Below, piece after piece: positions 17,022 to 64,000 of a DNA stretch of 64,000 nucleotides. The position numbers and the translations under genes are program-made. Numbering within the stretch: the first letter of the stretch is position 1; the number at the start of each line of letters is the position of its first letter. The stretch is from Planoprotostelium fungivorum. Its lineage: Eukaryota; Evosea; Variosea; Cavosteliida; Cavosteliaceae. The stretch lies in assembly GCA_003024175.1 (NCBI GenBank), contig MDYQ01000017.1, positions 141,276-205,275 of the forward strand, given 5' to 3'. The notes beneath the pieces were generated by a model. It saw only the letters and a program-made list of their open reading frames with translations. It was not told the DNA's origin and searched no databases.

Positions 17022-19281
17022 TTATCCCTCTCCACTGGAATTCTCGTTCCAGTTCTCCTTCTCTTCTTCTTCAGACCAATTTGTTGTCTTGAGTAATGTG
17101 ATCTGCTGATTCAATGCATGTGTATCGACAGGGATGTTCCACATCTTTCGACTTCTCGGTGATGGCAAAGAGATGGGAGACAGTTCGACCCTGTCTTCGT
17201 GTGAGAAGAGATGGAGCATAAGAGGATATCACCCTCTCAATTTGAGCGCGGGTCTGAGGGGGGTAGAGACACTGGGTGTGTATGGAGGAGGTGCCTCTGA
17301 TGCAGCTGGTGTGGAACAAGCGTTCCAAAACGATTCTTCTTCTGCGGTCATCTTGTTCTTCTGAAGAAGAGACGTCAGATCATCTTCCATCATGACGATG
17401 ATTGGTTGATGATAGCCCACCTGCATCTGCTTTCTCTCTCTTTCGATCTCATCGTGAAGGTGTCTCTTCTCTTCTTCCAGCTTCTGTCTCTGTTCTGCAA
17501 CGTACCTGTTCATCCAATCAACACAAATCCAAGCAGTTTATAACTCACCTCTTCTCTCTCTCGATGGTCTCGCGTTCGTGTTCCACGGTGGAATGCTCCA
17601 TGGAATATTCTCTGGCAGGTTGTAGATGATGCTGCAGGGACAATCTCAACAGATTATCTTGCTCCCTCACAATCTTCTCCAGCTCTTTCTCTCTCAGCGA
17701 AATCTCTTCTTCTGTATTCCCCATCAGTTCAAACGTGCCTCGTTGTAGTTCGATCCCTCCCAGCCGAAATATCATACAACACGTGATGAACGACACGTGA
17801 AAGATGATGTGGAATCATAGAAGAGCTGCACCTGCAGGTATAGACAGTCTGTCGAGTCTGTCTCTGAGGGCGGCCATGTTGCCTCTCATCTTTTCCTCGA
17901 ATTCGTCTCTGAGAAGATCGAAGGGCAGGTCGATAGCACCATCCAGCCCGTCCCCGTGGAGGCTGATGTCACCGGCTCGTTGTAGATGGCGAACAGCCTC
18001 TTGGTGGGAGTTCATGAGGTCCTTCAGCTCGGACTGCAAGTCCTGGAGCGAACCCCGAAGATCGGAGTTCTCCACTCGGAGTTCCGATATCTTGATGTCG
18101 TACGATTGGATGACCGATCTGTACACGTCATCCTGGAGGGATCAGAGAAATCTCGGTGAGGTTTCGAGTTACGTTTTTGGCGGGCTTTTTCTTCAGGTCA
18201 ATGGGTTTCGCTTCTCTGTTCTTCTCTGCAACGAGTGCTTGCATTCTCTCCTTCAGCTTGTTCATGTTCAATTCCTTCTTTCTCAGCTCATGCTACACGT
18301 TATGTCAGACGATGGTGATCGATCGAGATGGAGATCACCTGATACTGCGTGTCCTTGTAGATGAGGTTGTTGACCTTCTTCTGTAACTCTTCTCTCTCTG
18401 TGCTCCACTTTGTCTCCTTCTGTGAGAACGTCTCTGCGGATAGTCTCTCTTTGATCTTTCTCTGCTCGATCTCTCTCTCCAACTGGGAGACTCTGTCTTC
18501 GAGGCGGTTCTGATGATCGGTTGGACATTGAAACAAGATCGATGGTAAGATCGTGTTATGACTTACCTTTGAGAGGGTGATAGTCTCTCTTATGGCTTGA
18601 AGCTTGCGATTGGCATCGCTGAGATCCTCTCTCGCGGCCTCGGCTTTCTGATATGGTCAGGGGTACAAGAGAATGATCGACATCACCCTCTGTCTCTGTA
18701 AGAGTTCGTAGAGGATGTTGATGAGCTGCGCTTTTTCGTCTTCTGTGACGGACCCGCTCAATCGGATACCNTAAGATCGTGTTGTGACTTACTTTTGAGA
18801 GAGTGATGGTCTCTCTTATGGCTTGAAGCTTGCGATTGGCATCGCTGAGATCCTCTCTCGCGGCCTCGGCTTTCTGATATGGTCAGAGGTACAAGAGAAT
18901 GATCGACATCACCCTCTGTCTCTGTAAGAGTTCGTAGAGGATGTTGATGAGCTGCGCTTTTTCGTCTTCTGTGACGGACCCGCTCAATCGGATACCATCT
19001 ACATTCATCGATGTGAGAGCTTGATTCAAGAAGTTGATGCTATTGGCTATGTTACTCGTTGTGCAAAAGACTGATGGCCTAATTGAAGTAAGTCATACGA
19101 GATTTTATACCGCTCACTCTTGGCTCGTATTCTGAATCTCTATACTAGGCTCATCATACTGACAAACGATTAGCATCTGCGCTGCGAAAATGAACGATAT
19201 CGGAAGCAGAAGATGTGATAAGCAGCTCACTGGCCAAGGTTCATTGTTTGAATCGTCATTCCACTCATCAAACGCTCCCAT
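17022..19281 (-). CDS. SSX2IP/ADIP (Msd1)-like coiled-coil protein
   Basis: The start ATG at 19281 gives [10 protein letters not shown]. Short introns then join exons encoding [37 protein letters not shown], long coiled coil, [54 protein letters not shown] and [20 protein letters not shown], ending with [11 protein letters not shown] and an acidic tail (stop at 17022). The order and spacing match the SSX2IP/afadin- and alpha-actinin-binding protein family: an N-terminal CTEENI..SL..LNQEL motif, then KxYNKLKERLxxLV, then DEMYKxLLxxYExRQ..L..EN. Family members sit at centriolar satellites or spindle poles and anchor microtubules. The exon encoding the ETITLS segment is present twice around the N at 18771. 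A GGCGGGAAA E2F-type site lies about 70 bp upstream. Confidence 0.82.
18541..19000. repeat. Allelic duplication around a single N (18771)
   Basis: About 230 bp before and after the N are the same sequence with about five SNPs (for example TGTTATGAC/TGTTGTGAC and CAGGGGTA/CAGAGGTA). One copy should be removed to restore the SSX2IP-like gene. Confidence 0.8.
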
Positions 19282-19351
19282 ATCTATTCAATGAGGTATC
19301 CTCCTCCCCTTGATGCAAAGATGTGATTCAAAATTGTGGAGCAACGAAAAA

Positions 19352-19360
19352 GGCGGGAAA
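19352..19360 (-). promoter_or_regulatory. E2F-type site upstream of the SSX2IP-like gene
   Basis: GGCGGGAAA (TTTCCCGCC on the gene strand) is a textbook E2F match lying about 70 bp upstream of the ATG at 19281. Cell-cycle control of a spindle-pole gene is a plausible inference. Confidence 0.5.
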
Positions 19361-20330: not shown

Positions 20331-20712
20331 CATCGATTGCAGGTTTTAGAAAACACAATCGACCTTCGACTGATGATTGCAATCATCCTAATGATCGTTT
20401 GAATAGAGACGATTCGCACCATCAAATTCCATCCACGAACGGGCTCAGGCATCATCACTTCCTATACCCTCAGCTGCTGATGTGTTCGACAGAGTGTCTT
20501 ACCTTTGGTATCTTCCACAATGCATCCTCCTCCTCAGACGGTTCGTCCTCAGCACTCTCTTCACCTGTTCTATCTGAGCCTCCTCTGAGTCCTTCGAGGA
20601 TCTCAACATCGGCCTGAAGAAGGTGAAAAGGTTGTGTGACTTGACCCACAGTACTGACGTCAGCTCCATCATCACCGTCTTCCTCGACATCATCGTCTTC
20701 TTCATCATTGAG
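20331..20712 (-). CDS. Possible acidic protein, two exons (uncertain)
   Basis: On the minus strand a frame beginning about 20712 reads as an acidic segment (NDEEDDDVEEDGDDGADVS, later GEESAEDEPSEEEDALWKIP). It reaches GTAAG, a 41-nt intron ending TATAG, and an exon that ends at the TGA at 20331-20333 with a hydrophobic, basic stretch (LMVRIVSIQTIIRMIAII). Intron size and splice sites match the rest of the window. The start is not located and no family is recognised. Confidence 0.3.
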
Positions 20713-22989: not shown

Positions 22990-23421
22990 AGTTACTGCAA
23001 CAAGTGGAAGGACAAGTTGGAATTAGAATGTAGAGAGCTGAAGAATGTCGAGCACAGGGCCATCACTTGAGGAGAACATTTCATCATGGATGTGATGATC
23101 TGATGATCTACAACGTTGTAGACGCTCAATATTTACAGCCACAAATGCAAAGATGGAGAGGGAGGTGGCTGCTGTCAACGAAAAAGACTTGCGCGGAATT
23201 ATCGGTGAAATCTCGTCGAAACTTCTCGCAACTGAAGGAGAGAAGGTCAAGGTGAAGAGTCTGACCGAGGAAAATACTCGGATGCAAACGGAGGCCCTGA
23301 AGAAGTCACAAATGTCGAGCGGAATTTCTGAGGAACTCACGAGGACCAACGACGATCTACAACGAGCCGAGCACATGGTCACCGTACTGACAGCACAACA
23401 CCCAACTCCTGTCGGAGATTG
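22990..23421 (+). CDS. Coiled-coil protein fragment
   Basis: Plus-strand exons encode CNKWKDKLELECRELKN and then, after an intron that contains a CTACAACGTTGTAG palindrome and ends TTTACAG (23133-23140), a strongly heptad-like exon: KMEREVAAVNEKDLRGI, KVKSLTEENTRMQTEALKK, TNDDLQRAEHMVTVLTAQ, stopping at 23419-23421. No family is recognisable beyond coiled coil. The start is unclear, and it may continue from the LCAT-like region only by proximity. Confidence 0.4.
23106..23123. repeat. Dispersed palindrome (intronic), ATCTACAACGTTGTAGAC
   Basis: This is a near-perfect inverted repeat centred on AACGTT. It is one of four hairpin forms of the CATCTACAACG family and lies in a short probable intron. 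Confidence 0.6.
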
Positions 23422-23719
23422 AACACATGCAGGGGTGAGGCGAGAATTCTCTTCTTCCTCATCACTAACTTGGTGTCCGAGAAGCCAAATATTGCCATGG
23501 ACTTCCAATGGAAGGAACGGGATCTTTTTAATGCTGCTAATAGATTGTATGTTGAATCCTCTCTTCACTTTGCATTGATTCGATCGAGACGATGGTGGTC
23601 TACAATCAGTTTCTATTTTTATGGAATTTCAGTGCAACAGAGATGGCCGATGACTCATTGCAAGAACATACTCTTCATCATCACAATATTAAACGATAGA
23701 AAGACAGTTCAATTCATCC

Positions 23720-24180
23720 ATTCTTTATTACGAAAGGTCGAAAGAGAAGACCAGAAGAGGAGAGAGATAGAGAGAGAAGGCCAGAGGCTGTACCTGGGAC
23801 GTCTGGCCATGTCCTTCATCCTTGACTCACACTCGCCTACCTTCATCGCGCTGCTCCTCTCCAAAGAGAAGAGACAGACACTCCGGTCAGAGCAGACGTC
23901 CGACGCCTGGCTCTGTGCGGTTCCCCCTGCTCTGTAGAGACGTCGCGCAGAAGCACTGGCGCCTGCACAGAACAGCGAGAGTTGTCGGTGAGTCTGACGG
24001 TATCTGCCTCTGTCTCTCGCTCGCCACAACAGTGACAGATAGCTCCACGGTCTTTCTTCGATCTCGTTGACTCGTGAGAGAGAAGAGAGAAGAGCTGACT
24101 GCTGTCGTTTGATGAGGTAGAGGAGCGAAACCTTCTCTTGTCTCTCAGCAACCTGCATCTGTTCGACTCGATCAGTAATG
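23720..24180. repeat. Left arm of a ~450-bp inverted repeat
   Basis: This arm is the reverse complement of about 25135-25590, with small indels in the middle. It includes the GGACGTCTGGCCATGTCCTT phrase. Homology continues more weakly to about 24420, matching about 24890-25135. Reading frames are open on both strands, but the indels between the arms are not multiples of three, so the arms do not look like two conserved coding copies. Confidence 0.8.
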
Positions 24181-24479
24181 TGAAGATGAGAAGATGATCT
24201 GTGGATGATGTTGACTCGTGAGTGGCGGAGGCAAAGAGAAGCCTTGTGAGAGATGTAGATATGGAAGGCCAAGCAGAGTCTGAAGAAGCCGTCGTCGAAG
24301 AGAGGTCATCTTGGGTGAGGTGCAGTGGGTAGCGTGTCCATACCTCTGTTAGAGGCTGTTCGTGTGTGTATGTAGTAGTAGTAGTGGTTGTTCGTGTGGT
24401 GGCTGGACGAAGAATGAAGCTGAGGTGCTGCTTTTGTAAGGCCACGTAACCGACTGTTCGTTCACCGAATGGCATTCAC

Positions 24480-24860: not shown

Positions 24861-25134
24861 GAGGAATCGGCGGTTGAGATCACTTTTCAGCCAGCCACAC
24901 AACGAACAAGCGGCTTCTACTACATACCTACCTTACTACGACTACTATCACTCACACGAGTGCCCTACCTATTTCCCCTCGGCTTCTCTCTTACTCTCCC
25001 CGACGGCTAAGATGAAGTGATCTCTTCCTCGCATCTTCCACTGGCTACCACAACACCGCTTCTACACCTCTTCCGATATGCTGAGAGGACTTCCCAGGCC
25101 ATAGACCCATCATCTTCACATTACTGATCGAGTC

Positions 25135-25590
25135 GAGCAGATGCAGGAAGACGATGGACGAGAGACAAGAGAAGGTTGCGCTCCTCTACCTCATCAAACG
25201 ACAGCAGTCAGCCTTCTCTCTTCTCTCTCACGAGTCAACGAGATCGAAGAAAGACCGTGGAGCTATCTGTCACTGTTGTGGCGAGCGAGAGACAGAGGCA
25301 GATACCGTCAGACTCACCGACAACTCTCGCTGTTCTGTGCAGACTCCACTACTACCGATGTCTGTGCAGAGCAGGGGGAACCGCACAGAGCCAGGCGTCA
25401 CAGGGACGTCTCCTCTGACCGGAGTGTCTGTCTCTTTCTCTTCGGAGAGGAGCGGCGCGATGAAGGTAGGCGAGTGTGAGTCAAGGATGAAGGACATGGC
25501 CAGACGTCCCAGGTACAGCCTCTGGCCTTCTCTTTCTCTCTCTCTCTATCTCCTCTTATGGCCTTCTCTTTCTCCAGGCTTACAATAAAG
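25135..25590. repeat. Right arm of the ~450-bp inverted repeat
   Basis: Reverse complement of 23720-24180. An AATAAA signal occurs at the outer end (about 25586). The ACACTCGCCTACCTTCATCGC phrase (read on the other strand) also has a near copy at about 26829 in unrelated flanks, so this sequence family has at least three members here. Confidence 0.8.
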
Positions 25591-25896
25591 AACGGATGTA
25601 TCGAACTGTTTCTCTCTATCTCTCTCCTATTCTGTGCTTCTCTTCCAACATCTTCGATCGAATAAACATCTTTGTAAAAGATGACAAGAACAACTTGTGT
25701 CTTTAACTTTTGAAAATGCGGATATTCGATTCAGCTACGTCGTCTTCGTACAAAGTCAAGATACTGTGTGAAACCCCCGTGAAGACAACTTTATCTCCGT
25801 GAAGCCATCACTGATAAGCTGTTGTCTCATTTTTATTTCAATGCGACGAATTAAACGCGTCAGCGTGTCAGACAGAACAACAACAACAACAACAAC

Positions 25897-27248: not shown

Positions 27249-30200
27249 TTACTTCTTCTTCGAGGCAATTCTCGCACTCCTCCTCTCAGTCGGGGTATCG
27301 GATGTCTTACGGGGTGTCCCCTCTTCATCATCGACCTCCTGGCTGGCCAGCTCACTCAGTGCCTTTAGAGGTGTCATAGCTACGTCTCTTCAGTTCATCA
27401 TCGTCCAACGTCCACAGAAGATGAGAAGATGGAATCACCTGAGCGAGTGATGGAGGCAGGTCCAGATAGAAGAGTCTTCTTCGTGCTGGGTGCTTGACGT
27501 GTCACCCTCTTTACGCTGGTGGCTGAGGGAGTCTTCGGAACCACTTTCACGGGAGTGGCCGGTGGAAGCTCCACCTCATCGTCCTGCGTTCCATCATCAG
27601 TCGATCTTTAGAACATGATGTCGGTGATGATGATGATCCCACCGAGATGTTCAGGACTGCCGTTTTGGCGGGAAGAGGTGTCGAAGTCGTCTGTGATGAG
27701 GCGGGTGAGCTGCTCTCCTCGATCTCCTTCATCTCCGTCATTGTCGGCTCTTCTCCCGCCCTCAAGGGTGTCCTGAACGGATCAATCTACATCGTTGTAG
27801 ACGGACGCACCTCGCGGTCAATTTCGAACGAGGTGGAGTGGCGCGAGCGGGGGCAGTTTGAACGGGGGTAAGGTTGACGGGTGTGTTGGAGATATCCATT
27901 GGATCGTTGACGTCCGAGGGGTCTGACAGCAGCTTGTTGTAGTCTTCCGATTCCAACTTTTGGATTTCTGCTTCCTCTTCGGCCTCGAGGTGGTCCGACT
28001 TGGACGCGTCAGCGAGATGAAATAAAATGAAATAAAAGACTCACGTCGAATTCTTCGCCGGGGCTGATTCTCGCCTTCTGTGTCGAGTCAGTTGTGGCTC
28101 GTTGTAGATGGAATGATCGTTACGACATCTCACCTTCATGGCTTCTACTGCCTTGGCCTTATCGGCATCAATGGTGAGTGGTGTACCCTTAGCAGACGTA
28201 AACTCCGTCTGTCTACGTTCACTCGATGTCGACACTGTCTGAATCAGCCATCTACAACCTATCATGACTCACGTGTCGATTTAGGGGTGGCAGGGGGTAA
28301 GTCGATGTATCTCCTCACGATCTCCGTCTGTGACGTCACCACTTCAGAGGTCAGATCTAACAGATCCTCCGTAGATCTATCCGAGATCTTCTCCTTGATG
28401 GGGGCAGGAGTGGAGCTCTTGATGGCGATCAAAGGTTTGGCGGGAACGGGTGTGGATGTCTTGGCCGGGGTCGTTGTAGATGGAGCTGACACGGGGGTAG
28501 ATAAGACGGGGGTGTGAGGGAGCGTTATAGATGAGGGTGTCTCTGCGGATTTGGCTTGAGTGTCCTTCTTTCTACCGATCATGGGTGTGACCGTTGTAGA
28601 TGGAGTATCCTTCTCCTACCATGTCATCAGTCATTGCACGAGATTTCAGTGACATTTCACCGTTGTAGATGGAAACGGTGAGGCGTTCTTCACTGCAGGG
28701 GTCTCTGCTCGTGCGGGGGTGGATCTATTTTTAGATCCGAGGGGAGTGGTCTCCTTGGTAGCCTCAACTTGAGCCTGTCTGATGGGTGTCTGCACGTAAG
28801 GCGATGCAATTTCCATCGGGTCATCCATAAACGACACCTCTTCGATGACGTCATCACCTCGAATTTTCATCGAATTTTCTCACCCGTCAGCGGAGTCGCC
28901 GGCCTGCTGGACTTGACCGCCGTCCTCTTTGGTGTCTCGCTCCCATTCTTACCGGGTGTCTCGTTGTAGTTCTTGGCGGGTGTCTCCTGAACCTTGGCGG
29001 GAGTCTTTGCGATGTCTCTCGCGTTGTTCTCTACTGCCCTTCTGGCGAGTGACATCTGTGTGGCTCTCCTGGGTGTCTCTGGTATGGCTGAGAAGAGAGC
29101 GTCAGCCAGCGAGGGCTCCTCGGTGCTGGTCGGAACTTCCGAGACGGTGGCGGCCTTGGAGGGTGCGGGGGACTCGTGGCTGGTTGTAGATCGACGGGGG
29201 GAGCGTGGGGGAGATAAGGCGAAAGCGCTGCGGACTTCAGTTGGCTTGGGTGTTGGCTCTTGAACGTCGACTACCTTGGCGGGAGTCTGGGAGATCTTGA
29301 TGGGTGTCAGAGCTGTCTGAGATGTCTTGACGGGTGTCTGAGCTGCCTTGGCGGGAGTTTGAGAAGTCTTGGCGGGAGTCTGAGATGTTTTGGCGGGAGT
29401 CTCAAAAGTCTTGGCGGGAGTCCGAGCTGCCTTGACGGGAGTCTCAAAAGTCTTGGCAGGAGTCTGAGATGTTTTGGCGGGAGTTTGAGTGAGGGCCTCT
29501 TCTTCATCCACTTCATCCTCTTCTTCAGAGGATTCACCACGGATGACTACCTTGGGTGCCTTCAATTGAGCAGGTGTACCCGTGCGAGTCAAGCGTGACG
29601 ATCTGACAGGTGTCTCAGAGATGAACTGTACGTTCTTCGTGGTGGTCTTCTCGGTCGACGTTGTTTCGTTCGTCGACACCGTGGTGGTGGTGACTGTCTC
29701 GGCCACGATGAGAGAAGCGTTGGCGAGGGAGTTGTTGACTCTGGACAGTAGCTCTGCGGCTCGGTTGGGTAACTCCTTTGTGATGCTCTGCAGTGCGGGC
29801 GTGCTGAATGCCTCTGGCTCAGGGATGACCTTGGCGGGAGTCTCAACTTCTTTGGCGGAAGTCTCAACTATCTTGGCGGGGGTCTGACCGAATTGGGACG
29901 GCTTCACCAGAGTGACTTCTTCCTCTGTGATCTCAACAACGCCAACGGGTGCCTTGGCGGGTGTCTTTGTGGTCTTGACGGGTGTCTGTGCTGCCTTGGC
30001 GGGTGTCTTTGTGGCCTTGACGGGTGTCTGTGCTGCCTTGGCGGGTGTCTTGGCAACTGACTTGATGGGCGTCACCTCTTCCTCTGAAGATGAATCAAGA
30101 ACGATCGCAGATGCCTTGGCGGGTGTCTTGGCTGGGGTCTTGGCGGGTGTCTTGGGTGCAGGCTTCACGGGTGTGACTTCCTCTTCTTCCTCTGACGAAT

Positions 30201-32780
30201 CCACTTCTGCTGCACCGGATGTCTTGGCTGGGGTCTTGACGGTCTCCACCGCAGGTGTGGGTGCTACCTTGGCTGGTGTCTGAGATATTTTGGCTGGTGT
30301 CTCTATCCTTTTGGCGGGAGTCTGAGGCTGAGCAGCCTTCATGGGTGTCGTCGCCTCCACGGCGATCATCTCCTCTTCTTCCACTGCGTCACTTCCAACC
30401 GAGTGATAGCCTTCGTCCTCTGAGCTATCGGCCGTCACGAATGATTGGTCCATGTCTTCTTCGTCTGATGAAGCGACGAGGTCTGCCATGGTAACCACGG
30501 GAGGGACTGATTTGGCGGCTCGGTCGGGACGAGCCGGACTCTCCGTCGCCTTCGGAGTGTCCTCGGATGTTCCGACCTTCCTGGCGCGGGGGTTGACGGG
30601 TGCGGGGAAATCTGCGAAGGCGCTGCGCGTTGTAGATGGATCGGTTGGCTTGACGGCGGGGGTGGCTGATTTGGGAGCAGAGGATGATATCTCGAGGGAT
30701 GTCTCTGTCGTCACCTTGGTAGCTGCCTTGGCGGGAGTCTCGACTTGTACAACGGCCGGTGTCTTCGCTTGTACCTTTGGTGCTGCCTTCGCGGGGGTAG
30801 AGACAACCGGTGTGGGCTCCTCGACTACCTTGGCTGGTGTCTTGGTGGCTGCCTTCACGGGTGCTTGAGCTGCCTTGGCGGGTGTCTTCGGAGCTGGCTT
30901 GATGGGTGTTACCTCCTCTTCCTCCTCTACGGCGGGTGTCTTCGTAGCCTTGGCGGGTGTCTGTGCTGCCTTGGCGGGTGTCTTGGCAACTGGCTGTACG
31001 GGTGTCACCTCTTCCTCCACAGCAACCTTGGCCGGTGTCTTAGCGGGTGTCTTTGCTGCCTTGACGGGTGCTTGAGTTGCCTTGGCGGGTGTCTTGGGAG
31101 CCGACTTGATGGGTGTCACCTCCTCTTCTTCCTCTTCGGTGATAATCTTGGCAGGTGTCTTCGCAGGCGTCTTGGCTGCCACCTTGGCGGGTGTCTTGGG
31201 AGCTGGCTTGACGGGTGTCACCTCTTCCTCTGATGATGAATCGACCACCTTGGCGGGGGTCTTGGCTGGGGTCTTCGCTGCCTTGACGGGTGCTTGAGTT
31301 GCCTTGGCTGGTTTGATGGGTGTCACCTCTTCTGAGGACGACTCTACCATCTTGACCGGTGTCTTTGTGGCCTTGGCGGGTACCTTGGTAGTGGACTTGA
31401 TCGGTGTGTTCTCCTCTTCCTCTGAAGAGGATTCGACCATGCTCACGTTAGATGCTGGCTTGACTGGTGTCTCCTCTTCCTCTTCTGAAGAAGACTCCAC
31501 GACTTGAACGGACTTCTTGGCCGGTGTAGCCTTCTTGGAGGCTTGGGCATTCGGTTTGACGGGTGCCGCCTTCTCCGTCTTCTTCTTCTTCGCCGCTCTC
31601 GGTGCTTCGTCTGATTCCTCCACACTCTCTTCGGCGCTGTCGCTGTCGCTTCCCTTCATTCTCTTGCTGGCTGGCTGTGGCGTTTCTTCCGTGTCAGAAG
31701 CTTCGCTCTCTTTCCTTCTCTTCGGTGCAGCCATTGCGTAGTCTACGCATCGAGTCAGGCGAGAGATGTCGTGGAAAACTCACTGAGAGGCTCGATGGGT
31801 AGAACGATGTTGACATTTGCGATGGCCACTCTCAGTTGGATGACAGTGCTCTTCCTACGATTCTTCAGTGAAATTTTTAAGAGACGTACGAGATATCACC
31901 CGTCACGTAGAGCCACAAATACTGGGTCGGGGTGTTCGGTGTTGATGTACAGTGACAGTAACTTTTTGTAAAACGTCGCAAAGTTGGATTCCATGTTCTT
32001 CAGCTTATCTGTGGGTAATGGTGTCGTGTAGGCCAATCTCAGGGCGGCGATGACGTCGATCGCAGTTTCCTCAGAGAAAGTGTAGAAGAAGGGAGCTTCT
32101 AACACGCCAAGCATATTCAGCAGCACGGGCAGTATGGACTTGTGGATCTGTGGGTGATATCTCAAGAGATGACACAGACCGATCATTCTACGGAGTGATC
32201 TGACTTCGCATGATGACAGACTCTTCATCTGACTCTCTAACTGCGAGGTGTTAGATGAGATGATGGAAAGATGGCCTACCGTTTTCTGATCTTTCTCGGA
32301 GATGGGGTAATGATCGAGAAGTCTCAACACGTTCTCCTCCGCATTCTTCGGTTTCTCTTTGAGTTGAGAGAGAAACTGGAGATGACCGAGGACCGATGGA
32401 ATGATGGGGAGGTGTTGGTGGACGCTGGTGTAATACACGTAGAACGTGTGTAGATCTGCAGCTTGACCCCTGTGAGATGATTTAGAAGGAATGAGAGTGT
32501 CAACCACTCACTTGGAAAATTGATGGGAAGATGCTTGTTGCATCAGCTTGTGAAATGTCTGGGACTGCGATGTATGAGATACATTCACGTGATCGTGACA
32601 CATGTGTGATAATCTCACCAGTTCAATTGTGTCTTCTGTTGCAGATAATGAATTTGTTAAAACTGATCGTACTGCATCGATAAGTGATTGTGCATCACCA
32701 TACCGCTTCTTGTATTTGAGTAGAGTATGGCCGGAGGGGGATACTTTCTCCGCAACGTTCTTTCGTTTCTGTGAAGTCAT
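27249..32780 (-). CDS. Large Lys/Thr/Pro/Ala-rich nuclear-type protein with TPAK repeats
   Basis: I read one gene here. The start ATG at 32780 gives a globular N-terminal ~270 residues (MTSQKRKNVAEKV, LLRLLDHYPISEKDQ-type helices, MIGLCHLLRYHPQIHKSI, AAFFYTF-type segment, ending DPVFVALRDG). Two short introns then lead in frame through STVIQLRVAIANVNIVLP and IEPLNYA into MAAPKRRKESEASD. The huge next exon (31734 to about 28865) encodes tens of variants of TPAK or TPVK separated by acidic SSSEEE clusters. Later exons continue with VSFMDDPMEIAS, SDPSDVNDPMDIS, MTPLKALSELASQEV and a basic end, RRSARIASKKK, with the stop at 27249-27251. Repeated SP/TP sites and alternating acidic and basic patches suggest a phosphorylated chromatin- or nucleolus-associated protein. 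The N-terminal domain family is not recognised. Confidence 0.75.
27785..27804. repeat. Dispersed palindrome filling a 38-nt intron
   Basis: On the gene strand CCGTCTACAACGATGTAGAT occupies about half of a 38-nt intron (GTGCGTCC to GTTCAG) of the TPAK-repeat gene. The stem is TCTACA/TGTAGA with an ACGA loop. Confidence 0.7.
28096..28111 (-). repeat. Dispersed repeat CCATCTACAACGAGCC (intronic)
   Basis: This is an intronic copy in the TPAK-repeat gene. The same 14-16 nt occurs in coding sequence at 17974-17989, 23354-23368 and 35932-35947. Confidence 0.7.
28248..28259. repeat. Dispersed repeat CCATCTACAACC (intronic, inverted)
   Basis: It lies in a 38-nt intron of the TPAK-repeat gene, in the opposite orientation to the copy at 28096. 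Confidence 0.6.
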
Positions 32781-32987: not shown

Positions 32988-35900
32988 TCATTCCTCTTCT
33001 ACCTCCTTCTTATTCGAGGAGAGACTTGATTCCTTCAGAATGGTCACGATATCAGCCGGCTTGATTCTCTGTTTGGGTTGTTCGTTCCAACTGTTGACAG
33101 GGTGAGATCCAGATGCATGCATCATCAGGTATCTCACCATCTCTGCATGACGATCGCATGTGGTTCTTTGTCCATCATTTCGAGTCTACCTCCGTTCAAA
33201 ACATGGTCCTTGATCTGTGCAAGTTCAGACGATGTCTCCCGCTCATGCATCACCTCTCTGTTCTTCAGATGCTCGAAGGGTGTCTGTCCTTCGTTCATGA
33301 TCTCCCTAGAGAACATCAGATCCATTCCATCGACAATTCAATTCGATACACACCATAACAGGACACCAAAGGACCACACATCAGAGGCCAAATTGTACTT
33401 CTGCTCGGTCATCACCTCGGGTGCCTGAAGATGATGAGAAATGACGAGGCGAACACAAGGAGAGACTCGCACTCCAACGAACGATCTCGCGATCTGGATC
33501 GAAGGTGGGAGGTCTTCTGTTTCCACTCCACATGGCTTGACCTGATATCGTTCAGAACTGTTTCATCAGGTGATGAATTTACCGAAATCAGCCAATTTGA
33601 CCGTAGTTTCTGTGATCAGAACGTTTCTCGCCGCGATATCAGTGTGGATGATGTCCGACGATTGTAGATACGACATCGCCTGAGCTACTTGTACGGCTCT
33701 GTGATGTCGTCAGAGATGACGTGATGTCTCGTCTCACATGTCGTATCTCTGTGCGAGGGTCAGCTCTTTCTCGGACGATTTCTGCAATTTTTCGAGGAGA
33801 TTTCCTCCCATGAGGACGAATACGACGCATAATTCTCCGCTCGGCTCGTTGTAGTGCGATAGATATTGGATGACGTGGGGATGATGCAATCCCTTTCAGA
33901 TTCAGTCGATGCTGACGTGATGTGACGTCATACCTTCAGCACGTCCATTTCGTTCTTCAAGTCTTTGACTTGTGCTCCTGTTTTCGATTTCTTCACTGCA
34001 ACGAGAGTGGTTCCAGCTTGTAGACCTCTGTACACGACTGAGAGGTCACCCTCTCCAATCTTCTCCTGCAATAGGACGGAAGACTGGATCGATATCAGAT
34101 GGTGAAATTTCGCTGGAATTCACCTGATCGACGGTGGCCAGGGGCATCTCGTTAGGATCGTACTGGTACCAAGTCAGTTGGAGGCTAAATATAGAATCAT
34201 CACCTGTTGTACGTGCCTCTTCTTACGTAACAAGAAGAAGGTGATGACAGCCAGTATGGCCAACAGACACACAACACCCACCACGACACCTATCCATCCG
34301 CCTCATCACATGAAACGTTGTAGATGACTCACCCGCGATGAGTCCCGTCTTGGATGCACCACTGGGAGAAACAACCGGAGATACAGACGAAACAGTTGGA
34401 CTACCTACGGTGAAATTGGTCAAGTGACCACAGATGCATTGGACGGAGAAGGAAGTGAAGTTTTGGATGCTGGTACAGTTGTCACCGCTCCACTTGCCGG
34501 TGGTGACGTTGTAGAACAGACAAACTACCGACGATAATTTCTCTACCGAAGTGATGTTGGTAGGGATGGTGAGACCGATCTGATCTCCCGCTCCACTGAC
34601 CTACCACGTGTCAAAAGAAAGTTGCGAAATCTCCGTGAAATTTCACCTCGATCGCTGTACCATTAGAGTCCATAATCGTGAGTCCGTATATCGCCGCGGA
34701 CAAATTTGCCGGATACTGCGCGAACGACACTGAAGTATAGTTGTACTGCATGAACACTATCATAGCTGGCGCCGTCTGGTTCCTATCTTCTCTCTCCTTC
34801 TTCAACCGATCGAATAGACCATACGTGATGTAGGCAGAAGATGCTCCTCTCAGTCCATCATCTCCCATGGACACCTCTACGTGATCGGAAGAGTTACGAT
34901 CTGCCCGTCTGATGTCATAAGCGGTGAGACCGAATCCTGAGGCCTGAGGTGGTAGCACGATGGGATTTGTAGCGGAGGAATTGGAGAAGAGTTGGGAGAG
35001 GGTGTCGTAGATGTCCTCGGGGGAGAGGGTGCGGTTCGTTCCGAAATCTTGGAGGTCTTGTTTGGCTCGATCGTCTGAGATGGGCTGTTGTGCCTGTCCA
35101 GTGGGTGTAGGGGGTATTACTGTCTGTCCAGTGAGTGTGGGCATAGCTTCTGTCGAGTTTGTGTGGGATAGTGTGGGTGTCGTTGGTAGATCTACTTCTC
35201 CAGATCTCGATGTAGAAGTGGGTATTGTAGGAATGCCTGTGATTCTGCCTGATTCTGAGGTGAGTGAGTAGGAAACCGATGTGGGTGCGATTGTAGAATT
35301 TGTAGATACGGAGGTGTCTGTGAGAGTTGTAGATGTTGTGACAGAAGAGGTGGAAGATGTGATAAAAGAGGGGGTGGAGGTGATAGTGGAAGAGATGGTG
35401 GGGGTCGTGGAAAGAGGGGTAGTAAGGGCCGTAGTGGAAGAGGTGGTAGAGGTTGTGGAAAGAGGGGTGCTAGAGGCTGTGACAGAGGAGGTGCTAGAGG
35501 TAAGGGTGGAAGAGTCGAGAGTTGTAGAGGCTGAGGTAGATGTGTCCACGGATTGCATTGACGCTGGTGCTGGGATCGCACTATCACTTGCTCTCTTTTG
35601 ACGAGATGTGAGAGTATTCTTTTCGAATATGGAATCCCACCGTCCCTCATCCCTTTGGATCAACGTGATCACTGTACCCTTCAGCTCCCTCTTTAACTAT
35701 CCCCTCACCCGAATGATGAGTTCCCTCAATACTGTGACTGTTCCTGACGAAATTTGCTCTCGCGTAAGAGGCGCTATCGGCATGTATGATATCTACCGAC
35801 ACATCAGAATCAGATGATGACGTCATCATCTCACTCTTTCCTAGATTCTCTTCAAAGAGAGCTCCTTTGATGGTAACGTCTCCATTGCTGATGATAAGGT

Positions 35901-37457
35901 TCGAAGACAATTTTCCGTTCTTCCGGATCGTGGCTCGTTGTAGATGGATGTCTCCCGTCGAGCGTATGATCGATCCCTCTTCGTCAGCCGTATTCCCTTC
36001 GTAGTAACTATCCACATCTACGCAATGTCAGATGGATGTCTACGTCGACAACTGACCTTCGATCGTGTGACCATCGAAAACTCCTCCGTAGTTGGCACGG
36101 TTTCGTGTGTACGTACAACGGACCGAAGAGATGTGACCACGTGAACCTGCCTCCTTTAGAATCGATAGAAGAAGAGTTCGACTCACTCGCCACTGCACCG
36201 TTCGATCCATAGTTGTCGTTGAATTTCGATCCACCCAGGTGAATCAGATCGGCCATCAAGAACGACACTCTGTTCTTTGAATTCTCCACACAAGTGTCTA
36301 TGATTTTCACTACGTTACCCCGGATCATAACTGAACGTTCGATCAGCGTGGATGTGACAGTGTCACATACCTCCAGGAGAAGAGCAGTGGGTGAAATTGG
36401 TTCGATCGATGATGACATCACTTGTGGCTCGAATCAATTCACTCGTACACAGTGTGAATGTGCCGTTGGAAACTGGTGGTGTCAGACGTATTGTCGGTCA
36501 CGTGACACACCGGTTACGTCTGAAGCGATGATGACACCCTCGTCGGCTCGGATGCGAGAGAATGTACAGTACGTAGCGTCCACGAGACCGGCCGGAGCAT
36601 CTGTGGGTGGTCAGCGTAGAAGGGAGAGAGAAATGTGGTCTCACAGATCAGTGGCCCTGTGTGGCTGAAGCCATCAAAGATCACGTCCATCAATTTCACG
36701 CTTCCAGTGATCGATCTCACTGCATCGTTGGAGGAAACTGAACGTGAAAGGTTGGAAGATGTGATGGTGATGTTGTGTTGGGATAGCAAAGACACGCCGT
36801 CCAGAGTAGAAGACTCGATGGAGATGTTATCGACGTCGATGTGGGTGCCTCCGATGCTGGATGACTGAGAGTGAAGATCGCAGTCGCCAGTGAGCTGGCC
36901 GTGAGAGATGTTGGATCCGATTAACCGCACAGATGTAGAGTTGTTTGTGAACTGTTGGTAGGGGTGAACAGAGATCTGAGCTTGAGAGATAGAAGAATTG
37001 AAAAAGGAGACGGCCTCGGTGTGGAATGTGAGGCGGACCGGATGATTCCACAGACAACCGATGCATGTGATCTGGCAACATGTGTTATCCTTTCAATCTC
37101 TGACAACCGCTATGTCTAACGGAACCCACCTGACGGATGTTCCTGAAGAGAAGGGAGGCACTCTGATGAACATTGAGTTGTCCTCTGATGTGGAGATTTA
37201 TGGAATCTGGACCGTCATAAATGAGCAGGGAATCCTCTTTCGAAATAGTGTCTAAAACAAGTATCTTGTCAATGCATCGGTGATCTTGAACCAGCGCGTT
37301 GAATGCTAATTAAGATGAGACACATGTAGAAGGTGAAGAAGAGGTCATCACCATCAAGAATGGGAGAACTGCTGTTGAATCGACTGATGGATGTAGCACA
37401 TTCCGCCCGAGTGATTGCTACACCGAAGACGAGTATAAGGAAGACGTTGTTCATCAT
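32988..37457 (-). CDS. Receptor-like protein kinase (TKL/tyrosine-kinase-like) with beta-helix-type ectodomain
   Basis: The start at 37457 gives a signal peptide ([18 protein letters not shown]). A long ectodomain follows with Asn/Ser-rich repeats like right-handed beta-helix or PMP-type proteins ([48 protein letters not shown]), then a Ser/Thr-rich stalk (about 35200-35600), a GAIN-like [11 protein letters not shown] motif, one membrane helix ([20 protein letters not shown]) and RKKR. The kinase has a Gly loop [19 protein letters not shown], catalytic loop [26 protein letters not shown] and [12 protein letters not shown], stopping at 32988-32990. Arg of HRD is Thr here. The ligand and output are unknown. 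Many introns are 38-50 nt, and one (34316-34326) carries CATCTACAACG. Confidence 0.85.
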
Positions 37458-38116
37458 CCTTCCGGTCTAATCTCTGTGGCTAGGCCGCTGCTCTCTGTTT
37501 CCGTGAAAGCCGTCAACTGACACGAGTCAAAAAAATACCCGTCCTTTCTTGGTTTCCCCAGGGCGTTCTGTTCGCAGTTGAACTCAAGTCCAAACATGTC
37601 TCACCAGGCCGGTCGATTGGTTACCTTGATGTGATCACTACCACGCAAGAGTGGCACGTGAAACAATAAGCCCGTTGTCGGCTTCTGTGAGTGGTATGAA
37701 GGACCTTTATGTTGTTTAGATGACGAAACGGTTTCATAGCAACCGTGGCACGTTGTAGACTGATTGGTGCCATACTACATCGAGGAAATGAGAGCGTATG
37801 AGTTTGACAGGTGGATCCCAATTGATCCACAATTCCTCATCGACGCACATCTCGCCACCATAGTTCGAATGAATGCATGTTCGAATTCGATCTCATCACT
37901 TTTATTAGAAGAACGCTGTGCAGCGTAGAGAAGAATGCATCTTCCACCCCCTGGGGTAGGCTGTGGAAGCGTCTTATTTATAGATGAGGATTGTCCTCAG
38001 GGTGTCATTTTGAGCTGTTTGTGTCCTTACGGGGTATTTTAAGAGACACCTCCAGGCCTCTGGGGGATCTGCGCAGGATCTCACCTCCAGATTTACATTT
38101 CCTTCAAATCATCATC

Positions 38117-42176: not shown

Positions 42177-43930
<1,754 letters not shown>

Positions 43931-44112: not shown

Positions 44113-46129
44113 ATGACTGCCGAAGTGGCCATTTCTTCTTTCGTCTCTTACTTTGTGAGTTCTGCTTCAAGTTTATCAAGAGACTGCACACAATTGAGAC
44201 AATCAATCGATCTCCCTGCAGTCACAGAAACCAGCAGCGCTTCTGTCCTTCTGGAGCAGGTGATTGATATATTTGTTACGTTCTGACTAATGTTCTTTGA
44301 CTAACGATTGCATTAGTTGAACGACAGAGCTACAAATTTGAATGATGAAGTTCAACAATTGTTGAATTATCCTGGGTTGATAGAGCCTTTCAGTTTCGAT
44401 CACATCATCTCAACATGTGAGACGATGTGGTCTCTCAACCAGGCCCATCTTGAAAAAGTCGAATCGAAATTGATTCAATACGGATTTAAGAACGATTTCA
44501 AACCGAAGAAGCAGATACAAGAGCGTCCTGCGAAGAAACAGACGATCAGGTATGGTTGATGATGTGATCACCATTCCATCTCAACCTCTTACAGAAGTGA
44601 CAATCAATCCACCTTCATCAGAAAGCCAACTGTCACCGATGTCTCCGTCTCATACAAGATCGGATTACCACTCTCCGTCGCCCCAATAGAACCCACATCC
44701 GCCGTCGATGATTTCGGTCTCGAAGATGATCTCGACGACGACATCCAACAAGTCCAGATCTCATCATCTACCATGGCCCTCCTTGCGGAAGCATCGAGAG
44801 GTGATCTCAGCTCCCTCTCCATCAACTGATTGACATGTCTCAGCCAAAGCCCTCGCAGCGCAGAAGGCCATCTCATCCGCGGCTCCATCTGTGATGGAGA
44901 ATCGTCCCACCACCTTCACCTCCCTTCCCACCCGTCCATATGTACCTTCTACCGCAACACAACCCACCGTCGCCCCGGTAACCACCACGATCCAAGCCAC
45001 AATCCAGCCCGTGATGACCATCGGCGTTGTACAAACCACGCGAGAACCATCATCGAACGTCTCTACGCCAGATCACAGCGAATCGTTCACCGAAGAGGAA
45101 GAAGAAGAAGCAGTCCCCACCTCCCTACGTCGCCCGGTGACCGTTTCGGAGTGAGCGAAATCGATCGATGACGTCATCTGACGTCATCAGATTATCTCCG
45201 GCCTCGAAGATGTTGGCCATGATGTCACCCGTGGACGATGAGCCGGTGCCTTATAACCCTCCCTCTCTGCAACAGATACTGCGCCCTACTGTCGTCGCTC
45301 AGCCGCCCGCTGCACTTCCTGCCTCAGCGAAGGATCGAACGAAAGGCCAAGAGAAATCTTCCGCTGCGGTGGCTAGACATCCAAGTCCACCAAAGAGTCA
45401 AGTGAGACATGCATCAACATGATCGATCGCAATGATCATGATCATCTGACGGGTGACAGAACGTCCCTCTACCCTCCCCTCCCGTCTACAACCGGCCCAT
45501 CCTCAAACCCACTCAAGCTACCTACGACATCTCTCAGAGAGGATCCGTGGTGAGACCTGTAGACGAAGAGAACACGATGGACCTCATGAGGCTGTGTCGG
45601 AGTGGTATGGATGAAGGTTGGACTTCACCTGACAGAGTGCCTCCCACTCCAATGGAGTCGAGAGCGAGACCCGTCAAATTCACCGGGAGAAGGTGAGTCG
45701 TTCCGGGGATCCTCAGGGTGACGAATTTTCAGCGGGATTTCCGTACCCACGAGACCGATCGTCCAACAGAAAGTTGAAGTACAGACGGATGCACCCAAGG
45801 TCGTTGCCACGGCGACGAGCGTTGTAGATGGATCGAAATCGAATGCGAGGCACATTCAGCCCGAAGAGATGAAATCACTCTCCTCTTACCTCCTCCAACA
45901 GTGTCCCCTCCAAGTGATAGAATTTGAAATTTGAATATAACTGACATACGAATAGGAGCTGAACTCTCTGATCGACGCGATGTCCACGTTCATGAGGGAG
46001 AAGAATGTCGACTGCGTACCACGTGGAGTGATACCGCAACTGACGACTATGAAGCCCACTACAATGAACATGGCTCTGAAGAACTTGGGCCGTGTGGACA
46101 TTCGAAACGATTCGTATTATTTCGTATAA
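44113..46129 (+). CDS. SKA3-like spindle and kinetochore protein
   Basis: The start at 44113 (MTAEVAISSFVSYF). The first exon is an N-terminal helical hairpin (FVSSASSLSRDCTQLRQS, LNDRATNLNDEVQQLLN, TCETMWSLNQAHLEKVES, KLIQYGFKNDFKPKK) that aligns by eye with SKA3, including the YxQKYGYxPxxKK-like turn. The DDFGLED motif (SKA3 has LSDFGLE) follows, then a long Pro/Ser/Thr-rich middle with SP/TP sites, as in SKA3, and a C-terminal structured part (SLSSYLLQQCPLQELNSLID, REKNVDCVPRGVIP, MALKNLGRVDIRNDSYYFV) ending at 46127-46129. SKA couples kinetochores to microtubules in mitosis. SKA1 and SKA2 are not in this window. The coding copy of GTTGTAGATGG at 45820-45831 is read as VVDGS. Confidence 0.75.
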
Positions 46130-50778: not shown

Positions 50779-50806
50779 CGCAACGAAAGCATCAGATATA
50801 TGTCCA

Positions 50807-50817
50807 CATCTACAACG
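50807..50817. repeat. Dispersed repeat CATCTACAACG (intergenic)
   Basis: An exact 11-nt copy just past the end of the truncated F-box gene. Confidence 0.5.
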
Positions 50818-60212: not shown

Positions 60213-60501
60213 CGTTGCGATCGTATTTATTTTGAATTTCTGTTGATCGCTTCCGACAACAACAACTATGGGCTGAGAAAAATAAATTTTACACTATTAC
60301 AAGCTGAGTAATTTCATAGTAAATCACAAGTGCATCCTTTCAGCGATTTAAATAGAAGAGCTTCAGTTAAGAGTGAACTGTTCTCTGTGTGCGTCAGCAG
60401 CTGGTGGAAATCCTCTTCCGTAGATATTTTTTTTCTGAATAGATTTGGTCTTTTTCTGACTTCCTGCCTAAAAGTCCATTTCTTTCGGCATCGTCACAAA
60501 G

Positions 60502-62637
60502 ATGGATGATGATCCTCAGGCAAAGATCTTCTTCTCCTTGCTATCAGACAGTCCCATATCAACCACAGTCAAGACAGAAGAGTGGAACAGCTTCTTTGCT
60601 TTTCTGCGACTCCAAGATCTGTTCAAGAGAATGATCAACGAGATGGCCAGCAGTGACTGTCCAGCAGCCAAATGGATACATTATATGGAGTTATACAAGG
60701 AGGACTATGCACTAAGGACATCGTCACCTGGCAATCTCGACCATCTCAATTTAGACACGCTTCCCGCAGAAGTCATTGACCGAATCTGTGCTCTGATTTA
60801 TTACGACGGCCTTGACTTCAACAAAGTAGACGGTCTGTTCCCTCTGGTGAGTCCTCTTTCACAATAATACCTGGTTAACTGTAACAGATACGAGTCAACA
60901 GAGCACTGAGATCTACAGTGACTGCCATCCACCGAAGGTTTCGGCTCAAACGACTCACTCTGTCCTCGATCGACAAACCTCTCCTGTCTTATCTGGACAG
61001 GAACCCCAATGACACTCGCTTCACTACCCACATGGACATCAAGGACGAACATCTACCTCTGATCTTCTCACATCACGATCTATTTCCAAACCTCGAAGCA
61101 CTCAAATTTCAAGCTGTGACACCCTACGATCTCGAATTCTTCAAACAATTGGGGTGTCAGTGTCTGAAGGTTTTGGACATCAGCTTGGCTTACTGCTTTC
61201 CCGTAGAGTGAGAAGCGCACATCAGGTCCCATCTCATCCACTTTAGAGCTCTGGCGAAGCTATTGACCCCATCTCTTGAATCTCTCACCCTCGATGACGA
61301 GGGCGATCTGAACCCATTTCTCCCTCAATGCCCCAATCTCAAGTCCCTCGCGGTAACCAACAGCTCCAACTTACCCGCGATCACGTGAGCCCATCCACCC
61401 GTTCTACCTGACATACTCACAGCTTCTCACGTTTAGAACGGCTCACACTGTCCGACGGATGTACTGATCCGCCGGCTTCATTCTTGGAAAAGAACGAGAA
61501 CATCGTCTATCTCAGCATGCACCACAACATCCAAGTCCACGAGGATATGTTACCTAATTTAACGGAGGTCAACGTCCCCTTACGTTCATGGGGATGGCTC
61601 ATCGCTCCCATGACATCCAGAGGAGATGTACAACGGCCATTGAGGAAGGTCACTTTCCCGCCAAAAGATGAAGCGGAGGAGCACCACGTGGATGGAAATA
61701 CCGTCAGGCACATGTCTACCCTACGACGCCTCGTCAAGATCAAGTGAAGCATCCATCTACAACGATGTAGACCACCGTTCTGACGCATTCCAGGAACTGT
61801 CCTACCACCCACGATTGGACGCAGAATCTTCCATCCTCGATCCAGAAGATCCGATTCAACTGCATGGACCTCAATTCCATCCAAGTACCTCACCTACCCC
61901 ATCTCACTCGCGTCGACGTCAAATCGAATAGCTCCATCAGCCTCCTCCCCTTGATTCAACAGCCCATTGGATTCGAATGCGGTGCTACCGTCAAAATCTT
62001 CCTCTGGATCAGGCAATGGATGACGGCTGTGCCTTCCATCAGGAAGATGACGATCAAGCCGTCAGCGGGGCAAGAGAAGAGGGTCGACGCTTACAGATCA
62101 TCAGACGTGGTAAGGGTGGTCGTATCCAAGGGCAGAAATGTGGCTTGCATCTCGTACCTCCAACTGCTGCGTGACGAAAGAATGGATGAAATTCACGGCA
62201 TGATTCTGACGGAGAGGATGAGAATGCCAGGATTCGAGGACGAGTGGTTCGGTAGGACCAATTGCCGCTTCCAGACATTGGAACTGAGGGACTTGAATAT
62301 TCAGTTGTATGCATATGGATACGAGGAGACCTTCATGCCAGGGTTGGTACATGAAGACGACGAGGAAGAAGAAGAGGAAGAAGAAGAGGATGAAGAAGAA
62401 GAAGAAGAGGAAGAGGATGAAGAGGAAGAAGAGGAAGAAGAGGATGAAGAGGAAGAAGAAGAAGAGGATGAGTGGGATGAAACGCAAGAGCCAGAGAACG
62501 ACGAGGCCACGATGCAAGTGTACTTTGATGAGATACGGCAGCTCTGTGAGGAATTCCACCACATACAAGACGAAGAAGAGGAGATCATCAGAAGAGAAGA
62601 CGATCACGAGGCGCACATCGGCATAGTCAGATGGTGA
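60502..62637 (+). CDS. F-box/LRR protein with acidic C-terminal tail
   Basis: The start at 60502 (MDDDPQAKIFFSLLSDSP). The N-terminal helix EEWNSFFAFLRLQDLFKRMI is followed by the F-box (HLNLDTLPAEVIDRICALIY), an intron (GTGAGTCC to GTAACAG, about 60846-60888), then LRR-like segments: HDLFPNLEALKFQA, CLKVLDISLAYC, SLESLTLDDEGD, PNLKSLAVTNSS, RLERLTLSDGC and LPHLTRVDVKSN. A further intron (61746-61795) holds the CCATCTACAACGATGTAGAC hairpin. The last exon carries RNVACISYLQLLRDERMDE and a run of about 50 Glu/Asp with few breaks (62355-62470), then EHIG-like end at 62637. F-box proteins recruit substrates to SCF ubiquitin ligases. The substrate is unknown. Confidence 0.8.
61753..61773 (+). repeat. 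Dispersed palindrome in an intron of the F-box gene
   Basis: CCATCTACAACGATGTAGAC forms a TCTACA/TGTAGA stem with an ACGA loop, inside a 50-nt intron. Confidence 0.7.
62355..62475. repeat. GAA/GAG/GAT trinucleotide tract
   Basis: An imperfect purine-rich tract encodes the Glu/Asp tail of the F-box protein. The other strand is open as poly-Ser but is only a shadow. Confidence 0.85.
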
Positions 62638-62743
62638 TCCACCACAACGACACGCTTACGAAACATGGAAGACGAGTACGAATGGATTTGTGTAAAGAAA
62701 TCGAATCGATAAAAGTTGAAAATACGAACGTGTCTACATGTAT

Positions 62744-64000
62744 TTACAATGACTCCACCATAGGTAGATTCTCGTCAAAAAGCAGCAAGAGAGAGCTGAA
62801 CAACTCTACGATCTGGAAGGTCCCCTCTGGAATCGTCTGGTCCACGTTCTTGATTCCCAGCCACCTCAACACTTTGTCTAGAGAAGGTGTCGAATCTCCC
62901 AGGAAGCTGAGCGTGGGGGACAGTTGAAACTTTTGTCTGCGGTAGATCTTCACGGGTCCCGGGAAGGCCGTGGGCTCGCTGGCAAAGGTGGTGGATAAGG
63001 TCTTGACGTAGTTGAGGGCGACGTCTTTGAGGAAGCTGTAGAGGTTGATGTTGAGAGCCATGACGATGGAATCGTTGAATTCGGTTAAAAAGTAAAAGTC
63101 GATCTCGGGGGTGTCGTGGAATCGAGTGGAATAGAGGATGAGAGTGGAGACGGGGAATCGCATGATGGACTGCTCATCGAAAGTTTCTCCTTTCTCGTCC
63201 TATTCGGGTCATCAGCAATAATCGGATGATGTGATGTGATGATTGAAAGAGATATCTTACCATCTTCGATACCCTTCCACCACTCAAAACCAGTGACAGC
63301 TGACTCATCAGCTCGTCTTCCTTTCTGCTCTGCTCTAATTTGACCTCACACGTGTTGATGTTGATGTAAGCAGAAGAGGGATCTTTCAAACTGAACTCGA
63401 ACAAGAACGCGGAGAAATTCGTTGCCCTGACGATGACCGAGCCTATCGGCCAATTTTGGTTCCTCTTCTTCGTCAGAGTGCTGAAGCTGCGTGCCGCAGG
63501 CTGGCGTCTCAAATCTTTGAGACCGTGCTTGCCCAGCATCTTGAGAGCCTTGTTGTGCTCGTTCGATATTCCCTCTACCACTCTGAGGAGTGTCAGGGCA
63601 CGAATATTTGTGACACCAGACTCACCTCCTGGCTATAGCTGCGGCGGAGGACGCCGTCTCACAAGAGATGTGTATGCTGATATCTTTCAAGGAAATTTCC
63701 GCGTCGACACGACGATTGTCCGATCTCCGAACACAGGCGACCACGCTGACATCTTGCGTCCATCCACCTGAAATTTCTCAGAAAAATAGTCCATCTACAA
63801 CGATGTAGATCACCTTTGACGCTGAGAATAGGGGAGAGGTTGTGGGACGCCTCCATGGCAACCGTTCCGATCAGAATTCTCCACACGTTGGGCACACTCT
63901 TTGGATTTTCTGCGAAATATCGCGCGGGATTCAGTTCTGCCTCGATGTCCAAGAGACTGACCGTGGCGTCGAGTTGTAGATTGCCACGAGATCTCAACGA
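62744..64000 (-). CDS. C-terminus of a large protein, possibly BLTP1/Csf1-like lipid-transfer protein (partial)
   Basis: The gene enters from the right edge. Exons on the minus strand: NLQLDATVSLLDIEAELNPA to SPILSVKG; an intron holding the CTACATCGTTGTAG hairpin; GWTQDVSVVACVRRSDNRRV, SLKDISIHISCETASSAAAI; VEGISNEHNKALKMLG, LKDLRRQPAARSF, VIVRATNFSAFLFEFSLKD; and the last exon STLILYSTRFHDTPEIDFYF, TEFNDSIVMALNINLYSFLK, then FQIVELFSSLLLLF, ending at 62744-62746. Beta-strand-rich segments followed by TEFND..ALN and a helix are reminiscent of the end of bridge-like lipid-transfer proteins of the BLTP1/Csf1 type, but that is from memory of style, not alignment. A generic large beta-rich scaffold is the alternative. 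Confidence 0.45.
63791..63811. repeat. Dispersed palindrome in an intron of the right-edge gene
   Basis: CCATCTACAACGATGTAGAT, the best hairpin of the family (7-bp stem ATCTACA/TGTAGAT), sits in a short intron that also contains GAAATTTC. Confidence 0.7.

Follow-up and report, generated by a model that had tools for sequence, protein, structure and literature searches.

Dispersed DNA signals that tolerate any strand and context are known from bacteria (Chi, uptake sequences and HIP1), and homodimeric transcription factors have dyads of inverted half-sites at one spacing, such as the cyclic AMP response element (CRE, TGACGTCA), the E-box and the heat shock element (HSE). In this study, we describe a short word, CCATCTACAACG, that recurs in exons and introns of a 64-kb stretch of Planoprotostelium fungivorum DNA (contig MDYQ01000017.1, positions 141,276 to 205,275; hereafter the window), together with a dyad into which some of its copies extend. 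All counts, shuffles and enrichments given below are within this window. The nearest precedent that we found is the Arabidopsis intron and exon expression motif TTNGATYTG, which is short, over-represented in introns, acts from introns and coding sequence without a need for splicing, and is active only in the first ~1 kb after the transcription start (PMC6760150); its example shows that elements working from within genes do exist. The P. fungivorum word is likewise short, intron-enriched and present in coding sequence, and might likewise affect expression; unlike TTNGATYTG, it has another sequence and does not lie close to predicted gene starts. None of 19 sites falls in the first 35% of its predicted gene and the distribution is skewed to the 3′ two-thirds, in a count that rests on predicted starts, takes 8 of its 19 sites from a single gene model (g6), and leaves out Tyr-Asn (YN)-type matches (such as 43621, in the early part of g10), sites that fall in no predicted gene, and the model g19, truncated by the end of the window.

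With the CRE, E-box and HSE dyads the motif shares inverted half-sites at one spacing, and TGACGTCA, which we take to resemble a bZIP dyad, is itself concentrated in introns here; the motif differs from these dyads in sequence and in being enriched in coding DNA as well, which TGACGTCA is not. Introners resemble one another almost up to the exon-intron boundary on either side, with terminal inverted repeats in some families (PMC9860276); our motif also recurs in many introns, but its copies share mostly 12–20 bp and occur in exons too. The MSL-complex signatures of Drosophila coding sequence are gene-body signals with a 3′ bias involved in X-chromosome dosage compensation (PMC3355045). The window motif is also a gene-body signal with a 3′ bias, whereas the MSL case concerns an animal, dosage compensation and composition signatures rather than a word like CCATCTACAACG. 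Literature searches with six 11-mers as in-word strings gave no description of such a motif among the matches listed, judged by title and the start of the abstract; whole-word searches with the palindrome and with four 8-mers had no match, and topic searches returned no description of the motif among the matches listed.

We lean towards reading CCATCTACAACG as the double-stranded DNA recognition site of one sequence-specific, putative DNA-binding protein, used within gene bodies. This reading is based on what the sequence shows: the word is enriched as DNA, introns carry it on both strands, the dyad recurs at one spacing, the 5′ edge is sharp and the copies share no larger element. A protein-binding motif was among the options named in an earlier note on this DNA made from the letters alone, and it is the one that the sequence evidence favors here.

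The word is far more abundant than composition predicts. It has 10 exact copies against a dinucleotide-shuffle mean of 0.01 (none of 100 shuffles reached 10) and, when up to one mismatch is allowed, 17 matches against a mean of 0.24 and a largest shuffle of 2. The comparison with a Markov expectation that the earlier note had proposed, run here at order 4 within the window, gives 0.03 expected. A scan for 12-mers with at least six copies after low-complexity filtering returned 18 words, three of which are the motif and its overlaps and one the palindrome GATGACGTCATC, the other 14 being overlapping words of TPAK-type protein repeats. Seven of the 17 matches lie in predicted exons, eight in predicted introns and two outside the gene models. 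The copies and related cores are as follows.

17741..17748, minus strand: core CTACAACG; intron according to the gene model, coding ELQRG by eye, uncertain.
17978..17989, minus strand: exact copy; exon of the coiled-coil-like gene g2, frame HLQR.
23108..23121, no strand assigned: perfect dyad CTACAACGTTGTAG; within a 47-nt GTGATG..CAG stretch (23092–23138), an intron by eye, not predicted.
23353..23364, plus strand: one-mismatch copy; coding DDLQRAE by eye, outside predicted genes.
27787..27804, minus strand: dyad CTACAACGATGTAG with a one-mismatch 12-mer; predicted g6 intron 27761–27810, 3′ splice site uncertain.
28100..28111, minus strand: exact copy, sense, followed by AGCCAC; g6 intron 28078–28133.
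28248..28259, plus strand: one-mismatch copy, antisense; g6 intron, predicted as 28209–28272, by eye possibly only 38 nt.
28472..28483, minus strand: exact copy; g6 exon, frame PSTT.
28592..28603, minus strand: exact copy; g6 exon, frame PSTT.
28661..28672, minus strand: exact copy; g6 exon, frame PSTT, adjoining the predicted 5′ splice site of intron 28616–28660.
29183..29190, minus strand: core TCTACAAC followed by CAGCCACG; g6 exon, frame STT.
30628..30639, minus strand: exact copy; g6 exon, frame PSTT.
34316..34327, minus strand: one-mismatch copy, sense; 43-nt intron 34290–34332 of the kinase gene g7.
35936..35947, minus strand: exact copy followed by AGCCACG; g7 exon, frame HLQR.
37751..37759, minus strand: core TCTACAACG, then TGCCACGG; not in any gene model, may code for STT by eye.
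42403..42414, minus strand: one-mismatch copy, sense; 42-nt intron 42383–42424 of the beta-amylase gene g10, supported by protein homology.
42857..42868, plus strand: one-mismatch copy, antisense, beside ATCACGTGAT; 44-nt intron 42840–42883 of g10, supported by protein homology.
45820..45831, minus strand: exact copy, antisense; g11 exon, frame VVDG.
50806..50817, plus strand: one-mismatch copy; diverged g18 paralogue without a predicted gene, beyond the end of BLAST-level similarity.
61753..61770, plus strand: exact copy extended to the dyad CTACAACGATGTAG; 50-nt intron 61744–61793 of g18.
63791..63808, plus strand: exact copy extended to the dyad CTACAACGATGTAG; 46-nt intron 63768–63813 of g19.

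The exact copies at 61753 and 63791 are on the plus strand and the other eight on the minus strand. The earlier note had reported a dispersed 12-mer at 18 places, all of which are present in substance, although some of its positions need shifting by a few bases (27785 to 27793 and 28096 to 28100) and its near-exact copy at 23106 has two mismatches, while forming part of the perfect 14-bp palindrome CTACAACGTTGTAG. The reading frames it gave (PSTT at 28472, 28592, 28661 and 30628, HLQR at 17978 and 35936, antisense VVDG at 45820) are those found. It had also described the first 11 kb as AT-rich, with no copy seen there: no match with up to one mismatch occurs there, but the core CTACAACG does at 10639, and GC content is mostly 36–41% yet reaches 49% at 8–10 kb. 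The AT-rich window start holds nested inverted and direct repeats that are 78–98% identical (1587–4561) and has no predicted genes.

Within coding DNA the signal is held at the level of the nucleotides. In the coding sequence (CDS) of a first version of our gene models, seven copies of the 12-mer stand against a mean of 0.01 after synonymous-codon shuffling (0 of 500 shuffles reached seven), and three against 0.01 (0 of 500) when the Thr-rich gene g6 is removed. Thus, protein content and codon usage fail to explain the 12-mer. Among 9-mers in the second-version CDS, ATCTACAAC ranks first with a score of 23.3, where the best of 60 shuffled sets, used for family-wise control, reached 8.1. The earlier claim that the match is conserved as DNA whatever the frame, the strand or the intron/exon status is borne out by these shuffles and by the agreement of the top words in CDS and introns.

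Introns are enriched further, a feature that, like the 4-bp-spacer dyad, was absent from the earlier note. The top intron 8-mer is TCTACAAC (8 copies against 0.17 expected; score 23.2, where the best of 200 shuffled sets reached 13.0), and 8 of the 17 matches fall in predicted introns, which make up 5.9 of 64 kb, or 9% of the window. The density of TCTACAAC is 1.35 per kb in introns, 0.58 in exons and 0.19 in the rest, part of which looks by eye like intron or coding sequence that the models missed. Four other intron 8-mers exceed the 95% family-wise level of 8.9, namely ACGTCATC (13.4, against a shuffled maximum of 13.0), ATTGAAAG (11.1), TGACGTCA (9.4) and CTTCTCAC (9.2), and ACGTCATC is an extended word of TGACGTCA. 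Predicted introns contain six of the 11 copies of TGACGTCA, at 1.0 per kb compared with 0.04 in exons (examples at 21879, 28846, 33923, 35818, 45169 and 45179), and coding DNA is not enriched for it (1 against 0.82 in synonymous shuffles). Palindromic 8-mers as a class number 36 in introns against a shuffle mean of 21.5 (the highest of 200 shuffles was also 36), most commonly TGACGTCA (6) and GAAATTTC (4), and show no excess in exons (68 against 76).

Four copies extend into an inverted second half-site, giving CTACA-N4-TGTAG. Four exact dyads have spacer 4 and one has spacer 2 (44051); the remaining nine spacers in the range 0–10 have none. When one mismatch is tolerated, spacer 4 again has four dyads and each of the others zero to two. 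The spacer-4 dyads are all intronic, those at 27787, 61757 and 63795 in predicted introns and that at 23108 in an intron assigned by eye. Two inverted half-sites at one fixed spacing, as at homodimer sites, are therefore present, and so is constraint regardless of strand and frame, as seen in the synonymous shuffles and in a 3:2 strand split in introns, the latter on small numbers. Some exonic and intronic copies (28100, 29183 and 35936) continue 3′ into a GCCAC-like sequence instead. The 18-base dyad ATCTACAACGATGTAGAT had eight matches, in unrelated bacteria and archaea, in 257 billion bases of contigs, where arithmetic predicts ~7.5; in viral contigs the 19-base dyad had no match and the 18-base extended form one.

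Little is shared beyond these elements. The 5′ edge is sharp at CCAT, upstream of which the pairwise identity of the 17 sites is at background, and identity outside the motif ranges from 0.22 to 0.29. Around 30 anchors, 0 of 433 pairs of left flanks score at least 12 (0.3% in the random-pair null) and 8 of 433 pairs of right flanks do so, led by the dyad and GCCACG-like extensions. In an all-against-all BLAST of introns, the longest match among those bearing the motif covers ~35 nt in the pair 61744/63768, in inverted orientation at 91% identity and with the dyad included, and crosses a splice site into the exon; the remaining matches are 12–29 nt and do not span introns.

If the recognition-site reading holds, single sites would probably be bound by the putative protein as a monomer and the dyads, CTACA-ACG(A/T)-TGTAG, probably as a homodimer. 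Sites would be retained in gene bodies, at their highest density in the very short introns, which present no obstacle to a full dyad, and also in coding DNA in whichever frame the protein tolerates. Binding in the transcribed region could then modulate transcription of the host gene, making the site an intragenic regulatory element; it is from the sequence pattern that we infer binding, dimerization and modulation alike. A more tentative extension, possible but doubtful on present evidence, is a genome-wide address code for gene bodies, in which one putative DNA-binding protein would read many copies of CCATCTACAACG and the dyad in transcribed DNA and the amino-acid and codon choice of unrelated proteins would be bent around the sites. 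The dispersed DNA signals of bacteria would then have a counterpart in a eukaryote, located in exons and introns rather than promoters. Were it genome-wide, unrelated genes of this lineage would hold a second code in their coding sequence, at the DNA level, and the very short introns would be free space for the full dyad. It would also offer a testable case of how binding sites inside genes act and what limits they set on proteins, a question already raised by intron-mediated enhancement and exonic transcription-factor binding.

Several observations weigh against the recognition-site reading. Copies cluster in g6, which has 5 of the 10 exact copies and 7 of the 17 matches, and predicted intergenic DNA, the usual place to seek transcription-factor sites, has few. 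The gene models come from a home-made, self-trained hidden Markov model gene finder in two versions. Use of both strands in introns is seen in five introns only, the non-dyad predicted introns with a match (three sense, two antisense). GAAATTTC (4 of 8) and TCACGTGA (3 of 7) are also intron-rich, without family-wise support, lying outside the 12 top intron 8-mers. At the 50806 copy, a MAFFT alignment with the paralogue has a 9-base gap that fits an insertion, in an ambiguous part of the alignment. Finally, the non-dyad matches with up to one mismatch are 11:3 in favor of the sense strand (p 0.057; a hand count in which 2 of the 11 were placed by eye outside predicted genes), a bias that leaves room for an RNA-level signal.

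Such a signal, with an RNA-binding protein or small nuclear RNA recognizing CCAUCUACAACG in pre-mRNA for splicing, stability or surveillance, is the alternative that survives best, though we think it unlikely. In addition to the 11:3 bias, 15 of the 17 matches lie in predicted gene bodies, and a looser core set gives 16:3 sense (p 0.004), a hand-picked set drawn from 37 CTACAAC matches after removal of YN-type, dyad and unplaced ones, with three members placed by eye. However, the tolerated frames already predict a sense excess in exons: sense frames read PSTT, HLQ or IYN and antisense frames RCRW, VVD or a TAG stop, so that on the DNA-level reading the excess could arise because antisense frames other than VVD give a stop or RCRW. 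The near-even split of the five non-dyad introns, together with the four dyads, also argues against an RNA-level element. In all eight predicted introns with a match of up to one mismatch, CTACAAC starts 9–26 nt from the 5′ splice site, within introns of only 42–64 nt, and exonic copies have no evident fixed distance to splice sites, several being mid-exon. The earlier suggestion of a splicing motif, and a position-specific splicing signal in particular, is disfavored by the two orientations in introns and the mid-exon copies, on small numbers. Introns show no excess of RNA folding (mean z −0.04 in a set of 110 introns no longer than 90 nt, which includes an 8-base stub at the window end), which speaks against an RNA hairpin; folding at background leaves that candidate without support.

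It is improbable that the copies are footprints of a mobile element or introner, i.e., tiny insertions that brought a 12–20 bp sequence into genes, as the earlier note had also proposed. The dyads do resemble inverted terminal repeats, and the ~35-nt likeness of the intron pair 61744/63768 and the 9-base gap at 50806 lend the tiny footprint some weight; but an alternative by-eye alignment of 50806 to the paralogue's CCTACGACG is equally good and BLAST-level similarity of the paralogues stops ~80 bases upstream. Flanks are otherwise unrelated: left flanks stay at the null level, no more alike than those of random anchors, the right-flank likeness comes chiefly from the dyad and GCCACG-like extensions, and the other intron matches are short. 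Both the intron BLAST and the anchored flank extension show shared sequence ending short of the splice sites, in contrast to introners, and there are no shared sequences beyond a few bases with defined ends as expected of a transposable element or miniature inverted-repeat transposable element. An introner and a transposon footprint are accordingly both disfavored.

A chromosome-maintenance signal (a recombination hotspot, replication or chromatin-loading site) usable on any strand and in any context would suit a word that is dispersed on both strands and in several frames at the DNA level, but we give it little credence, since introns are where the copies concentrate and predicted intergenic DNA has few. 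Least credible of all is a coding or compositional by-product of preferred codons ATC TAC AAC (I-Y-N) and Thr-rich repeats, for although eight CTACAAC matches in predicted exons do read Tyr-Asn in preferred codons (27936, 28963, 33848, 34508, 42963, 43621, 45486 and 58122), a subset of this shorter core that is ordinary coding, and g6 is rich in Ser, Thr and Pro, the frames of the exact copies in exons are STT, LQR (in which Leu has its rare codon CTA, 7%) and antisense VVDG, introns are enriched independently of coding DNA, and the synonymous shuffles, with or without g6, argue against this cause for the 12-mer.

The second-version gene finder gave 20 models with 115 introns (median 46 nt), 25.7 kb of coding sequence and 5.9 kb of intron, in a window rich in short GTGAG...AG introns. 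In a Pfam scan of nine model proteins or fragments, three matched no family and six matched EF-hand, CAP/PAN, pirin, glycosyl hydrolase 14, CRAL-TRIO and protein kinase families. Residues 20–438 of the beta-amylase model g10 align with solved beta-amylases, and its motif-bearing introns interrupt the protein at the A of HFFNAWYFN and at an E, where the alignment is gapless. Elsewhere the models are weaker, with sequence duplicated at single-N joins and a gene near 23 kb probably overlooked. The window contained no Rfam family at gathering score and no tRNA, and a search of viral contigs with a beta-amylase turned up no relative. The model g6 (27249–32543) encodes a long Thr/Pro/Ala/Lys repeat protein with TPAK and TPVK units and acidic stretches.

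Single Ns stand at 3991, 15036, 15988, 18771 and 57142. Those at 15036, 18771 and 57142 lie exactly between near-identical direct repeats (98–100%), and the other two directly behind the first copy of a 92% repeat. They are probably contig ends joined by one N with the overlap left uncollapsed, which would duplicate coding sequence and break gene models. Paralogous segments at 49753–50222 and 60529–61015 are ~72% identical with a ~120-bp identical stretch, as after recent gene conversion. An inverted repeat of ~500 bp, 89% identical, has its arms at 23695–24189 and 25110–25620, ~900 bp apart, and possibly represents the ends of a mobile element.

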